Source: Chloroflexota bacterium
GTDB lineage: Bacteria > Chloroflexota > Dehalococcoidia > SZUA-161
Length of the DNA stretch: 39,050 bases
NCBI GenBank assembly: GCA_021787935.1
Contig: JAJYLC010000010.1
Location: 1 to 39,050, forward strand
Direction: 5' to 3'
Part shown: in pieces, positions 9,476 through 15,244 of the stretch
Layout of the letters: every line of letters starts with the position of its first letter
Position numbering within the stretch: position 1 is the stretch's first letter
The notes under the pieces: model-generated
The model's input: only the letters and a program-made list of their open reading frames with translations
Databases searched by the model: none
What the model was told of the DNA's origin: nothing
Translations under genes and position numbers: made by a program

Positions 9476-9646
9476 TTAAACACCCTTACGGGCTTCTTCA
9501 AAAGCTTTCGCTCTTCTTTTCTGCCGTTTCCTTGAATCGCGTAGAACCTGATAAAGTCCACTGACGTTCAGGTACCACACCAGAGCAATCACAAGAAGGA
9601 CGAGAGCTATTCCCAGAACTATGCCTAATATAAAGTACCATTCCAT
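9476..9646 (-). CDS. Small membrane protein (56 residues), unknown function
   Basis: The ORF runs from ATG 9646 to TAA 9476 with an AGGAG RBS 8 nt upstream. It starts MEWYFILGIVLG, and one hydrophobic helix spans about residues 4-25 (rich in I, L, V). A strongly basic tail follows (RDSRKRQKRRAK), which by the positive-inside rule would face the cytoplasm. It is followed 100 bases later by a good terminator, supporting a real transcribed gene. I do not recognise a family. It lies downstream of the two-CW gene and may be cotranscribed with it. Confidence 0.6.
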   Translation of the reverse strand: MEWYFILGIVLGIALVLLVIALVWYLNVSGLYQVLRDSRKRQKRRAKAFEEARKGV

Positions 9647-9732: not shown

Positions 9733-10086
9733 TTAGCCTTTCCTGCCTTGCCGGTGGTTCATAGCGCTGTCAATGCCTTTTCCCGAGAGTTTCAGCTCAA
9801 TAGCCCTGCCACCGCCGTATTTTTTATAGATCCGGCATATGGCACAAATGCTGGTGTCTGTACCGGTAACTATTGCTCCGTGCTTCTGCAGTTTACAAAA
9901 AGTGCCCTCAATCTCCCAGCAGGGGAGGAAGGTGTAGGTCGATACCGGACATTCATTCTTTATAGATGGCGGACAGTGGCAGGTCTCCCAGCAGGACGTT
10001 TTGCCTGTCCAGAAGTCGGCTCCGGTTTCGCGGGCAATTTCTTCTTTGCCTGAAATTTCCAGCAATCGCCTTCCTTTTGTTTTCAT
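9733..10086 (-). CDS. Two-CW domain-type cysteine-rich protein
   Basis: A 117-residue soluble protein with ordered Cys/Trp motifs: SCWETCHCPP (about 31-40), ECPVSTY (45-51), PCWEIEGTFCKL (55-66) and ICAICRIYKKYG (80-91). Repeated CWE motifs with spaced cysteines are the hallmark of the two-CW family. The pattern suggests a metal or Fe-S site, but the function is not known. The N-terminus is charged and has no signal peptide. It lies between the response regulator and the small membrane protein gene, all on the minus strand. Confidence 0.65.
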   Translation of the reverse strand: MKTKGRRLLEISGKEEIARETGADFWTGKTSCWETCHCPPSIKNECPVSTYTFLPCWEIEGTFCKLQKHGAIVTGTDTSICAICRIYKKYGGGRAIELKLSGKGIDSAMNHRQGRKG

Positions 10087-10382: not shown

Positions 10383-11081
10383 TCACACTTCAGGCGCAGC
10401 CTGTGGCACATCCTCAAGAGTTATATAGCCCTTTTGCAACCCGCGTACCACGGCTTCGGTCCGTGAGCTGACCCCTATTTTATTGAAAATCTGCGCTACA
10501 TGTCCTTGCACCGTGCGTATACTCAGCCCCAACTCACCCGCGATCTCCTTGTTGGTGAGGCCGCGGGTCATCAGTTTGAGCAGACCTATCTCACGCTCCG
10601 TCAACTCTCCGGGTGTAGCCATATTCGAGGGTTTTCCCGATGTCATCGCGATTCTGCTCAATACTTTGCGGGCAATCGTGGGATGAAGCACGGATTCCCC
10701 TTGATAAACGGATCGAACACCGGAGACGAGCTCTTGAGTGTGGACTGTCTTCAGAAGGTAGCCAGCGGCTCCTGCTTGAAGCAACTTGAACACAAATTGG
10801 TCGTCGTCATGCGCAGACAGTATTAACACATTTATGTCCGGACAAGCATGTTTGATCTGCCTTGTAGCATCAATGCCGTCCAGCTTGGGCATAGCGATAT
10901 CCATTAGAACAATGTCGGGCTTGAGTTGCGTAGCCAGACGTACCGCTTCTTCTCCATCGTATGCCTCTGCGATCACTTCCATATCTGGCTCTTCCTCCAG
11001 GATTTTTCGGGTGCCTTCGCGCAAGACGGTATGGTCGTCAGCAACTATGATTTTTATCTTCTCAGTCGAAGTGTTACCCAT
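10383..11081 (-). CDS. NarL/LuxR-family two-component response regulator
   Basis: A 232-residue protein. The receiver domain spans about residues 8-125 with acidic pair Asp15/Asp16, phospho-acceptor Asp61 in LMDIAMP, and Lys111 in GYLLKT. The C-terminal LuxR-type helix-turn-helix spans about 160-218 (LTEREIGLLKLMTRGLTN, then SIRTVQGHVAQIFNK). It is closely similar to the regulator at 15518, with nearly identical HTH recognition helices, so the two may share sites. No kinase gene adjoins it. It is read away from the small paralogous genes, and the 363-base spacer between them holds inverted repeats that could be its operators. Confidence 0.93.
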   Translation of the reverse strand: MGNTSTEKIKIIVADDHTVLREGTRKILEEEPDMEVIAEAYDGEEAVRLATQLKPDIVLMDIAMPKLDGIDATRQIKHACPDINVLILSAHDDDQFVFKLLQAGAAGYLLKTVHTQELVSGVRSVYQGESVLHPTIARKVLSRIAMTSGKPSNMATPGELTEREIGLLKLMTRGLTNKEIAGELGLSIRTVQGHVAQIFNKIGVSSRTEAVVRGLQKGYITLEDVPQAAPEV

Positions 11082-11184
11082 ATCGCACCTACCCTATAGC
11101 TATTTACCCCATATAATTATTAACTTCCTTAGAGGAGATGCCATCGTATTTATGCGCAATTCCATACAGGCAGTAACACTGTAT

Positions 11185-11250
11185 TTGCCTATTCCGTTTA
11201 AATCGGGTCAGTAGGCAATAATGCTTGAATAACTAGGCCATTATGCCTAG
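11185..11250. promoter_or_regulatory. Putative operator cluster: two TGCCTA-type inverted repeats
   Basis: TTGCCTA (11185-11191) and TAGGCAA (11212-11218) form one inverted repeat with 20 bases between arms. CTAGGC and GCCTAG (11233-11250) form a second with 6 bases between arms. Similar words recur at 10221, 12143 and 12168. The site lies in the 11082-11444 spacer between the divergent response regulator and small-protein genes, which otherwise holds no gene. Confidence 0.4.
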
Positions 11251-11444
11251 CCCAATGCACCAAAGTGAAAATTCTCTGTGACAACAATGCCTGACGCAAC
11301 AGACCATGATGCTTGGGGGAACGTATGAAAGTGCAGACGTCGCCATAATAAATGCCTGAGAATTTAACCGTACGCTGGACGGTGCGTGATTCCGGATATC
11401 GGGAGATAATACAAACATCGAAGGAGTTCTGGAAGGAGGATGTC

Positions 11445-11639
11445 ATGAAAGCACAAGCCGGACACTTTGAGAACAAAATCAACGTAAAGAGGGAGAGCGA
11501 AACCTATAGTGGGGATGTCTTGGCAATGAAGAGGTGCGCAGAGAAGATCTGGAACGCCATATCGAAATACGTGGTCTTTGACAATGACGCCATTTTCAAA
11601 GACCAGAATTGGCCCTATCTTTGGACCGACAAAAAATAA
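11445..11639 (+). CDS. Small conserved-motif protein 1 (64 residues), unknown function
   Basis: ATG 11445 is chosen because GGAAGGAGG lies just upstream; the frame is open further up to 11352 but without an RBS. The product is hydrophilic, has no membrane helix, and has a variable first half followed by a C-terminal motif: IW, then KYV, then D.DAIF.D, then NWPYLW, and a short TDKK tail. The gene at 11743 encodes a second protein with the same ending. I do not recognise the family. The aromatic, acidic ending looks like a binding motif or a recognition tag. It is the first gene of a two-gene rightward unit that ends at a strong terminator, next to a response regulator. Confidence 0.65.
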   Translation: MKAQAGHFENKINVKRESETYSGDVLAMKRCAEKIWNAISKYVVFDNDAIFKDQNWPYLWTDKK

Positions 11640-11742
11640 AGGGCGTCAAGGCCGGGCATTCGTCTGTCCGCAGCAGGGCTGCAAATCAGGAAGCATCTAG
11701 AATCTGGGCCGGGAAGACATAGAACGGACAAAGGAGGTTGTA

Positions 11743-11928
11743 ATGCAAGCATATTTAGACCTGATTGTGCAAGAGGCTTACCTGGAAGCGGGAGAGGCTG
11801 AAAAGAAGGGGATACTGGATTCCCTGAGAAGTATCTGGGACACGGTCCGGAACACTGTAAAGAAGTATGTCACGTATGACAAAGACGCAATTTTTATGGA
11901 TCGCAATTGGCCTTATCTCTGGTCATAG
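11743..11928 (+). CDS. Small conserved-motif protein 2 (61 residues), paralogue of the preceding gene
   Basis: Starts at ATG 11743 with the RBS AAAGGAGG 7-8 nt upstream. The first half is acidic and helical (LDLIVQEAYLEAGEAEKKG). The second half repeats the motif of protein 1: IWDTVRNT, then KKYV, then D.DAIF.D and NWPYLW, ending one residue later. About 18 of the last 30 residues match protein 1, but the N-terminal halves are unlike each other, so selection appears to act on the C-terminal segment. A terminator follows at 12033. Function unknown. Confidence 0.65.
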   Translation: MQAYLDLIVQEAYLEAGEAEKKGILDSLRSIWDTVRNTVKKYVTYDKDAIFMDRNWPYLWS

Positions 11929-12032
11929 CGGTCACCGAAAGTAGGGCATATTAAGGAATATTATTTATATTAAGGATATAAGAAGACAGGGTCAGACTAA
12001 TACGAAGCACTGATGACTTTGTATCCTGAGGC

Positions 12033-12073
12033 GGGGGAGAACAAGACCTTCCGGTCTACTCTCCCCCTTTTTT
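12033..12073 (+). terminator. Strong rho-independent terminator after the small paralogous genes
   Basis: GGGGGAG (12033-12039) pairs with CTCCCCC (12061-12067). An inner hairpin AGACC/GGTCT lies in the loop, and TTTTTT (12068-12073) follows. The rest of the 11929-12258 gap holds no gene; two TGCCTA words sit at 12143-12150 and 12168-12175. Confidence 0.88.
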
Positions 12074-12258
12074 ATAAGCAATTCGAGTACCACTTTGTTT
12101 GATAATAGGTAATTATACGGGTTCTATTTGCGCAGTTTACCGAATGCCTAAGATGGAAAACGGCAGTTTTGCCTACAGCTAATTAAGCAAAATACATGAT
12201 GACACATATCAATAATCCGTGGATAATGCAAATAAGCTGATAGAAGAGGAGGAAGAGA

Positions 12259-13083
12259 ATGGCAATTATTACCCTGACCAGGGGAACATATAGCGGAGCC
12301 AAGGATTTGGGCCAGTATTTAGCGCAGAAGCTCGGATATAAGCTTTTATCCAGAGAGACAATTATCGAGAAACTGGTGGAATACGGGTGGGTGGACGAAA
12401 AGCTGGATAAGGTTCGCCAGAAGCAACTGGGCATGCTGCAGCGCATGAATCTGGAATGGATTCACTATGTTGCCTGTCTCCGGGCTGTGCTGAGCAAAGA
12501 AGTGCAAAATGAAGCTCTGGTCTATCATGGGAACAACGGGCAGGCGGCACTCCGTGGCTTCCCACATATACTGAGCATAAAAGTTATCGCGGACATGAAA
12601 TACCGCATAAAAGCTGTCAGGGAACGCAATGAGTACGCAATCGATCAAAAAGAGGCAATAGAGATAATCCACAGGATTGATGAACGGCGGGAAAGATGGT
12701 CAAAATTTCTCTATCAAACAAATGGTAACGATGCCTCGGCTTTTGATATGGTAATCGATTTAAGCCGTAAAAGCGTCGCCGATGCTTATGAGATGATACA
12801 TGCCACTGTTTCACTACCGCAGTTTCAACCTACTTCTAACTCGAAGAGGGCCATCGACAATTTGACACGCGCTGCCCAGCTGAGAGCCAGGATAGCAATG
12901 GAGGCTGATATTGTAGATGATGAAATCGAAGTCGAGGTTAATGATGGTGTGCTTAACGTCAAAGGAGTAGTACACTCACAGGGTGATGCTGATGAACTCA
13001 GGGAATTCCTCTCTCGTCAGCCGGAGGTTCATGAGGTCGTGAGTCACCTGGCGAAAACACCGCAGGAAATCGACACCGGGTAA
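12259..13083 (+). CDS. Cytidylate-kinase-like protein with C-terminal BON domain
   Basis: A 274-residue protein with RBS AGAGGAGGAAGAG before ATG. Residues 1-190 resemble the cytidylate-kinase-like family (ITLTRGTYSGAKDLGQYLAQ at the P-loop position, followed by LGYKLLSRETI), although the P-loop lacks a standard GxGKS/T lysine. Mid-domain segments (RIKAVRERNEYA, FDMVIDLSRKS) match the lid and later strands. Residues about 200-265 form a BON-like domain (VDDEIEVEVNDGVLNVKGVV, then VHEVVSHL), which in other proteins binds phospholipid or ligands. The fusion suggests a regulatory or sensing use of a nucleotide-kinase fold rather than CMP kinase activity. A hairpin follows at 13120. Confidence 0.75.
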   Translation: MAIITLTRGTYSGAKDLGQYLAQKLGYKLLSRETIIEKLVEYGWVDEKLDKVRQKQLGMLQRMNLEWIHYVACLRAVLSKEVQNEALVYHGNNGQAALRGFPHILSIKVIADMKYRIKAVRERNEYAIDQKEAIEIIHRIDERRERWSKFLYQTNGNDASAFDMVIDLSRKSVADAYEMIHATVSLPQFQPTSNSKRAIDNLTRAAQLRARIAMEADIVDDEIEVEVNDGVLNVKGVVHSQGDADELREFLSRQPEVHEVVSHLAKTPQEIDTG

Positions 13084-13238: not shown

Positions 13239-14519
13239 ATGCGGTTCTTTAATGAATGCGGCAGGTATCTGATGGCAGGTGCAACTGCCCAGGCCAGGTG
13301 GGAGATCAATATATCCAATACCATATTTCGTGACAGGAAGCGACTTTTCGTCCTGGCGCTGCTCGTAGTCTCTGCATTGATTGGCATATTTACCTGCTAT
13401 GCTTTAGCACAGGGTTCACTTCCAACTACGTTGGGAGGAAGCTCGGCTTACGAACCAGCCAAATATGCAGTGAACATATTTCTAGCGGCAATTCTTGTTG
13501 GACTTATTGCCGGACTTATAACCGGCTGCATTGGCGCCGGCGGAGGTTTTATTATTACTCCGGCCCTGATGAGCTTCGGAATCAAAGGTATCCTGGCTGT
13601 AGGTACGGACCTCTTTCACATCTTTGCCAAGGCCATCATGGGGGCGACTATTCATAGAAAACTGGGTAATGTGGCGGTAAAAATAGCCATAGCCTTCGGG
13701 GGTGGTTCTCTAATAGGGGCAACGATGGGCGGCATCATTAACAGGGCGCTTTATGACAGAAACCCTGTTCTGAGCGATGCATTCATTACCTCAATCTACT
13801 CAGTCATGCTGGGATTCCTGGGGTTTTATGCCCTTAGGCAGTTCCTCAAGAGCCGGAAAACTGGCGGGGCCGTTTCTCCCGAAGGTGGTGCGGTCGAAGA
13901 GATTGGCAAACTTCCTCAGAAGATACAGTCGATTAAAGTCCCGCCTATGATAGGGTTCGATCGCCATATCGTACCGGGTGGACGTAAGATATCGTGGCTT
14001 TTCGTCGCCCTCATTGGCCTTCTGGTTGGTTTTGTTGCCAGTATCATGGGGGTCGGAGGTGGTTTCCTGACCTTCCCCATGTTCGTTTTCACACTGGGCA
14101 TATCATCGACGACCACAGTAGGGACCGATATTTTTCAGATAATATTTACAGGTGGTTATTCGGCGATCGTGCAGTATGCAATATACGGCTTGATATTCTA
14201 TACACTAGCTATGGGTATGCTGCTGGGTTCGCTGGTGGGCATACAAATTGGAGCGCTGGTCACCAGAGTTGTGCCAATCATGCATATACGCGGCTTCTAC
14301 GCGATGGCCGTTCTTGCGGGTTTCGCCAATCGCATATTTGCACTGCCGGGCAAGCTGGGCTCATTGGGTGTAATTTCAATATCGAACAGCACAGGCAATC
14401 TACTTGCCAACATTGGAGTCTGGGTGTTCTTCGTTATCCTCGGCATTTTCGCGATCTGGGTGATTGGAGTGTTCGTAGGAAGTATAAGAAAGCTTAAGGG
14501 AATAGAGGTGAAAACATGA
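13239..14519 (+). CDS. TSUP-family (TauE/SafE) membrane transporter, likely sulfur oxyanion or organic anion export
   Basis: A 426-residue integral membrane protein. It has two inverted halves, each with the family glycine signature: GCIGAGGGFIITPALMSFG (about residues 99-117) and SIMGVGGGFLTFPMFVFTLG (about 267-286), each followed by a VGTD motif. A long hydrophobic segment at about 30-55 precedes the first half and may be an extra anchor. TSUP proteins carry sulfite, thiosulfate, sulfonates or similar anions; the substrate here cannot be read from sequence. Its stop overlaps the next gene's start (ATGA), so the 242-residue protein is probably a partner. Confidence 0.9.
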   Translation: MRFFNECGRYLMAGATAQARWEINISNTIFRDRKRLFVLALLVVSALIGIFTCYALAQGSLPTTLGGSSAYEPAKYAVNIFLAAILVGLIAGLITGCIGAGGGFIITPALMSFGIKGILAVGTDLFHIFAKAIMGATIHRKLGNVAVKIAIAFGGGSLIGATMGGIINRALYDRNPVLSDAFITSIYSVMLGFLGFYALRQFLKSRKTGGAVSPEGGAVEEIGKLPQKIQSIKVPPMIGFDRHIVPGGRKISWLFVALIGLLVGFVASIMGVGGGFLTFPMFVFTLGISSTTTVGTDIFQIIFTGGYSAIVQYAIYGLIFYTLAMGMLLGSLVGIQIGALVTRVVPIMHIRGFYAMAVLAGFANRIFALPGKLGSLGVISISNSTGNLLANIGVWVFFVILGIFAIWVIGVFVGSIRKLKGIEVKT

Positions 14520-15244
14520 TCCCCGACAAGATCAAGTTCTATACTGGTGTGGGGATGCTGGTGCTTTTTGCAGGCATATTGGCGGTAATGTTCTCGCCGG
14601 TCTTTGATGGTAAGAATGGGATGCGGTATATAGATGAATTATATAACTCAATATCAAAAGGTTCAGTTTACTATATTCCGAGTGTAGAGGAAGACAGCGC
14701 CAAATTTGTAGGAACTCCGCTGGTTGCTACTATTCAGATGAAGACTGCGGCACAGGCAAATCAAACCGCTCTACTGTACCAGGCGACTGGCGCGTCGGTA
14801 ACTACTTCGGGAGTCAATTTGACGATCGATGGGGATTTAGGCAAAATCCTTCAAGCCAGCCTCAGCGATTCAGATGCCATGTATCATGACGAGGGAGAGC
14901 AGATAGCGGCAAAATACGGATACGATGGAAAGCAGGTTCTTTACAATTGGTGGCAATCGTTCAAAGCATTAGATACTGACCTTAAGGACAAAGGAGTGTT
15001 TGACCAGTCTAAGATTATAGAAGAAACGCAGCAGAGAGCGATTGAACCCGCGTACAACTACTACGGGATACAAGCAGAAAAAATAGGGGACAAAGCTGGT
15101 ATTGTAGTATTCTCGTTGGTTTTCTACGTGGCTTATACAGTGTGGTATGGTTTTGCCCTTATGAACGTGCTCGAAGGTTTAGGTTTGAAAATAAAGCAGA
15201 TGCTTCCCTTTAGTTTTATAGCCATAATGAAAGACAAGCCCTAA
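14516..15244 (+). CDS. Membrane-anchored protein of unknown function coupled to TSUP transporter
   Basis: A 242-residue protein with a hydrophobic helix near residues 9-28 (VGMLVLFAGILAVMFSP) and another near 197-220 (AGIVVFSLVFYVAYTVWYG). About 165 polar residues between them would lie on one side of the membrane. No catalytic motif or cysteine pair is seen, and I do not recognise the family. The 4-base overlap with the transporter gene argues for a subunit or accessory role, for example a periplasm-facing ligand domain. It ends the operon. Confidence 0.75.
   Translation: MIPDKIKFYTGVGMLVLFAGILAVMFSPVFDGKNGMRYIDELYNSISKGSVYYIPSVEEDSAKFVGTPLVATIQMKTAAQANQTALLYQATGASVTTSGVNLTIDGDLGKILQASLSDSDAMYHDEGEQIAAKYGYDGKQVLYNWWQSFKALDTDLKDKGVFDQSKIIEETQQRAIEPAYNYYGIQAEKIGDKAGIVVFSLVFYVAYTVWYGFALMNVLEGLGLKIKQMLPFSFIAIMKDKP

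Follow-up and report, generated by a model that had tools for sequence, protein, structure and literature searches.

We found that two adjacent genes in a 39,050-nucleotide stretch of a Chloroflexota genome (the window) encode small proteins, A and B, and that these genes are genuine, occur as a pair, evolve under purifying selection and travel together with a neighbouring block of genes. As judged from sequence comparison, A and B make up a new and narrowly distributed orphan family of small proteins, of a general kind that is already known. The original prediction had described a tandem pair without a known family, joined by a conserved C-terminal module that might serve in docking, regulated binding or secretion; the undescribed family and its paired module hold up here, and secretion is not supported. 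Coordinates are collected in Table 1.

Table 1. Features of the A and B locus and of related loci. Positions are those of the window unless a contig or locus is named.
Feature	Position	Strand	Details
Small protein with motif (V/Y)WYLNVSGLY or near	9476-9646	-	G007 copies: L076 277-465, 1438-1737, 1782-2000 (-)
117-aa cysteine-rich protein	9733-10086	-	CWETCHCPPSIKNECP...CWEIEGTFCKL...ICAICRIYKKY; also L009 6603-6962 and L076 838-1239
RR1, divergent NarL/LuxR-type response regulator	10383-11081	-	Response_reg + GerE
TAGGCA/TGCCTA elements	11186-11250 and 12143-12176
Inverted-repeat cluster, RR1/A spacer	11205-11254	.	TAGGCAATAATGC, CTAGGCCATTATGCCTAG
Ribosome-binding site of A (AGGAGG)	11434-11439	+	context tggaAGGAGGatgtcATG
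Small protein A	11445-11639	+	64 aa plus stop; MKAQAGHFENKINVKRESETYSGDVLAMKRCAEKIWNAISKYVVFDNDAIFKDQNWPYLWTDKK
Shared C-terminal module in A	11538-11624	+	AEKIWNAISKYVVFDNDAIFKDQNWPYLW; shuffle test
Hairpin inside A coding sequence	11572-11605	+	15-nt arms, one mismatch
Ribosome-binding site of B (AGGAGG)	11732-11737	+	context aaAGGAGGttgtaATG; AGGAGG kept in G002 and G006
Small protein B	11743-11928	+	61 aa plus stop; MQAYLDLIVQEAYLEAGEAEKKGILDSLRSIWDTVRNTVKKYVTYDKDAIFMDRNWPYLWS
Shared C-terminal module in B	11839-11922	+	C-terminal profile match E = 1.1e-18 (B itself among the profile sequences)
Intrinsic terminator after B	12033-12073	+	hairpin ~12033-12067, then T run
Cytidylate-kinase-like/BON-like protein	12259-13083	+	PF13189; PF04972 below Pfam's cut-off; downstream of the terminator
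TauE/SafE-family transporter (PF01925) and 242-aa membrane protein	13239-15244	+
242-aa membrane protein	14516-15244 (L075 8833-9546)	+	directly after the TauE/SafE gene
Third A-type copy, more divergent	G000:C59:11264-11455 (L011 8265-8459)

The prediction of two neighbouring genes, each behind a strong ribosome-binding site (GGAGG), was confirmed in the sequence. Upstream of A, the pattern GATAATACAAA.ATC.AAGGA.TTCTG..AGGAGGATG is conserved in the congener G002 and in a third copy on contig C59 of the window genome (G000), and is less complete in G006, a species of a different genus. A longer start that would extend A to 95 residues was rejected, as that frame does not stay open in G006 (69 aa open) or in the C59 copy (67 aa open). 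In the comparison of the window with G002, A has a dN/dS of 0.125 (0.043 over codons 28-64) and B one of 0.317 (0.224 over codons 28-61), with values of about 0.06 for the neighbouring response regulator RR1 and the kinase-like gene. Against G006, the synonymous sites in the C-terminal half of A are saturated, and non-synonymous differences amount to 3-6%, with about 5% when A of the window is set against A of G006. Because dN/dS between congeners is well below 1 for both genes, we take A and B to be real proteins under purifying selection, which by these estimates acts most strongly on the module of A that B shares.

The two proteins end in a homologous segment of about 30 residues, KYVxxDxDAIFxDxNWPYLW, in which A (EKIWNAISKYVVFDNDAIFKDQNWPYLW) aligns with B (DTVRNTVKKYVTYDKDAIFMDRNWPYLW). 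This similarity lies far above chance, with a local score of 108 versus a maximum of 51 among 5000 shuffles, and when the whole genome was searched in six frames with B as query, A came out as the second match (E = 2e-8). Across both types the columns K, V, D, I, D, N, W, P, L and W are invariant. Over their first 27 residues, A and B have no significant similarity (p ~0.10, shuffle test), so that unlike beginnings and a common end, as originally described, are both borne out by the shuffle tests. The further claim that conservation is confined to the C-terminal 30 residues is not: each N-terminus can be recognised in its own orthologues (window versus G006, 0 of 5000 shuffles as good), and since they are conserved within each type, the N-termini probably matter too.

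AlphaFold gave weak models of A and B (pLDDT 59 and 67) from an input of four sequences, the window proteins and those of locus L004, with the G006 and C59 sequences left out. Both models place a central helix before an aromatic tail of low confidence. When the residues of the helix segment are shuffled, 92-99% of the shuffles are less amphipathic than the segment itself, and its mean hydrophobicity is low (-0.3 to 0.13). Read by eye, neither sequence contains a transmembrane segment of membrane length, and the suggestion of a secreted peptide finds no support in the charged N-termini, in which no signal-like hydrophobic stretch was seen. That the shared C-terminal part is a conserved binding module is plausible.

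Homologues carrying the motif do exist, as the original prediction would have it. Among nine genomes of the family, the pair is present with its order unchanged in three species from two genera (the window genome, G002 and G006), and the B orthologues are 74% (G002) and 56% (G006) identical to that of the window. Searching these nine genomes with a profile at E up to 10 added only the third copy in the window genome. We found no relatives of A or B beyond G000, G002 and G006 in 393 genomes of the class, and in 400 genomes of the phylum the C-terminal profile gave only chance-level matches outside its own genome, the best of them at E 0.06 within a longer frame; as these searches are samples, the narrow distribution holds as far as they reach. 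Plasmids, phages and viral contigs likewise contained no relatives, nor did the small ORFs beside paralogous kinase-like genes, beside a TauE and 242-aa gene pair in G096 or beside RR1-like genes elsewhere. A scan of the GTDB contig collection that used B as query, and that picks up no more than close relatives, returned a single locus. It lies in B_CHL_03, a metagenome-assembled genome from the anoxic deep layer of an acidic pit lake, Cueva de la Mora, that has been assigned to the Dehalococcoidia with SZUA-161 as both order and family (PMC7563247). Judged by kinship, the window genome probably belongs to this family too.

In the databases searched, the motif also answers to no described family. 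PADLOC and NCBIfam gave no match to the family, Pfam no convincing one, PHROGs chance-level matches only and the PDB sequence search chance matches at E 0.75 and above, and a text search of the literature for WPYLW found no paper. MADF (PF10545), a eukaryotic DNA-binding domain, matched one of the seven family members weakly in Pfam (E 0.00099) and did not match A or B of the window; we take this single match as chance.

The C59 copy has a synonymous distance (pS) of 0.27 to A of G002 versus 0.50 to A of its own genome, and its dN/dS is higher (0.48 versus G002). The window genome assembly is 4.95% contaminated, and the copy may be transferred, mis-binned or decaying. No RR1, kinase-like gene or TauE gene adjoins it, and no similar gene follows it downstream; any partner would therefore act in trans, or the copy is decaying. 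By eye, its surroundings resemble a metal-resistance island with P-type ATPases, an OmpR-type regulator and a kinase.

The common terminator foreseen for the two genes is real. The structure after B folds at -24.9 kcal/mol (z = -3.3), and a terminator-like stem that differs in some of its bases aligns at the corresponding position in both G002 and G006. A simple terminator scan did not report it, because its loop exceeds the loop limit of the scan. This strong hairpin and its T run, with stems aligned in both relatives, make it most likely that A and B are transcribed as a unit of two genes, which stops short of the gene at 12259. On the other side of the pair, the response regulator and the inverted repeats in its spacer are both present as claimed; the spacer hairpin (-19.7 kcal/mol, z = -2.7) is kept in G002 and missing in G006. 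We also counted five TAGGCA/TGCCTA elements in the two spacers that flank the pair (693 bp) versus 25 in the whole 39-kb window, a count made post hoc. These elements are possible regulator-binding sites common to RR1, the A-B pair and the kinase-like gene, and from position and spacer motifs only, we infer that the neighbouring response regulator may control A and B.

A further hairpin lies inside the coding sequence of A. The same stem is found in the window, G002 and G006, and neither B nor the C59 copy has it. In the window, only 0.2% of synonymous recodings reach an equally good fold, and 9% do in G002 and in G006; two of the three single-species recoding tests are not significant, and the element was itself noticed post hoc. 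Among the codons beneath it (44-53), 8 of 10 are unchanged across the three species, compared with 5 of 23 in the rest of the C-terminal half (Fisher p 0.005, Met and Trp excluded). This hairpin may be an RNA-level or operator element and is offered as a lead only. Rfam gave no match over positions 10900-12400.

The surroundings of the pair are conserved in the same three species, where RR1 on the minus strand is followed on the plus strand by A, B, the kinase-like/BON-like gene, the TauE/SafE gene, the gene for the 242-aa membrane protein, a second response regulator (RR2) and a GAF/PAS histidine kinase. The closest copies of RR1 (93% in G002, 72% in G006) both adjoin A and B, close orthologues of the kinase-like protein (93% and 82%) occur only in genomes with the pair, and the 242-aa protein, which has no Pfam match, has close orthologues only in G002 and G006 (87% and 67%). 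The best orthologues of these three proteins thus fall in exactly the three species of the family that carry A and B. The genome G007 has RR2, the kinase, the genes after it and, upstream, a relative of the 117-aa gene, and it lacks RR1, A, B, the kinase-like gene and TauE, so the block was gained or lost as a unit. With only three species, this co-inheritance is weak evidence of functional coupling.

Several other genes of the region have relatives of their own. The kinase-like/BON-like proteins occur in six copies in the window genome and in G002 (further copies in G000 lie on contigs C42, C61, C153 and C154), and several adjoin TauE-like transporters. A second family of small proteins, of about 55-100 aa with one hydrophobic segment, is present in the window and as three neighbouring copies in G007. 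The 117-aa cysteine-rich protein has no Pfam match and is conserved in G002 and G007. The 242-aa membrane protein also occurs in another family of the Dehalococcoidia.

What we propose, from co-transcription through a shared partner and its identity to a regulatory role, takes A and B as co-expressed cytosolic adaptors or regulators, with a shared binding module for a common partner and different N-terminal effects. This reading draws on the side-by-side pair, the single module, the different but conserved N-termini and the co-inheritance of the block, and we put it at a little under an even chance. A and B would be made side by side from one transcript, each with its own N-terminus, a short amphipathic helix and an invariant acidic and aromatic tail. 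Helix and tail would form one module, bound by a common partner from the same gene block; candidates are a response regulator (RR1 or RR2) or the histidine kinase, the cytidylate-kinase-like protein and the TauE transporter complex. The different N-termini would give A and B different effects on that partner, and the pair would act as an adaptor or regulator operon with feedback onto the adjoining signalling and transport block. In a more specific form, which we think improbable as a whole, A and B would be paired alternative adaptors under the NarL-type regulator that compete for one partner in the lineage-specific kinase/TauE block, with the hairpin in A helping to set their ratio.

The same evidence can be read more narrowly, with the partner of the adaptors named: A and B would be small co-regulators that bind RR1 or RR2, tune its DNA binding or phosphorylation and feed back on the divergent gene. 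The divergent position beside a strongly conserved RR1 in all three species is consistent with this, as are the TAGGCA/TGCCTA elements in both flanking spacers. However, the argument is one of position, the motif count is the post hoc one given above and RR1-like regulators are numerous in genomes that lack A and B; we consider such co-regulators possible but unlikely. Alternatively, A and B could be membrane-surface peptides, with a basic amphipathic helix on the inner face and the aromatic tail at the interface, that help to assemble a membrane complex of TauE and the 242-aa protein. The amphipathic helix, the tail rich in Trp and Tyr and the adjoining membrane-protein genes would suit such peptides, but the helix is of low hydrophobicity and no transmembrane segment is present. 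Moreover, the TauE and 242-aa pair has a 42% relative in G096 that stands without A and B, so it can do without them, and we find a membrane-surface role possible but improbable.

A role as leader or arrest peptides, whose C-terminal ends would act inside the ribosome on downstream genes, is suggested by the strong conservation of the C-terminus and by Trp and Pro at or near the stop codon. The C-terminus is the best-conserved part of arrest peptides. However, a leader peptide is a short ORF upstream in the transcript of the gene that it controls, and here about 330 nt, with a strong terminator among them, lie between B and the gene that follows. A regulated terminator at this site is conceivable, but A has four residues beyond the last Trp, the conserved part spans about 30 residues and includes a helix, the N-termini are kept within each type and nothing similar lies downstream of the C59 copy. 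Given the terminator in particular, we regard this role as highly unlikely. Spurious ORFs or a non-coding regulatory RNA, which the small size of A and B and the hairpins within A and the spacer might suggest, are refuted as the main explanation by selection (dN/dS 0.13 and 0.32), frames retained in three species, ribosome-binding sites and A-B protein similarity despite saturated synonymous sites, leaving them barely any probability.

Few parts of bacterial genomes are as poorly annotated as their small proteins. As it stands, A and B represent an orphan family of a known general kind, backed by selection, pairing and conserved neighbours; if the shared tail is a docking module, the family would offer a compact and testable case, from an anaerobic lineage without cultures, in which two small proteins compete for one partner.

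Two known systems illustrate how such adaptors might work. The DUF1127 small proteins (the SDPs of A. tumefaciens and YjiS of E. coli) are likewise small and present in several copies per genome, and those studied bind a kinase, the sensor kinase PhoR (PMC12501420). The Pfam profile of DUF1127 matched none of the seven A and B family members at E up to 1, and A and B differ from it in their motif and very narrow distribution, so that DUF1127 serves as a model of working only. MgrB is a small protein of a two-component regulon that acts on PhoQ, feeding back on its kinase (PMC8404706). MgrB sits in the membrane; A and B, in which no transmembrane segment was seen, are not single-pass membrane proteins of that type, and no family match connects them with it. 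DUF1127 with PhoR and MgrB with PhoQ set a precedent in bacteria for small proteins that act on a sensor kinase; A and B belong to neither family.
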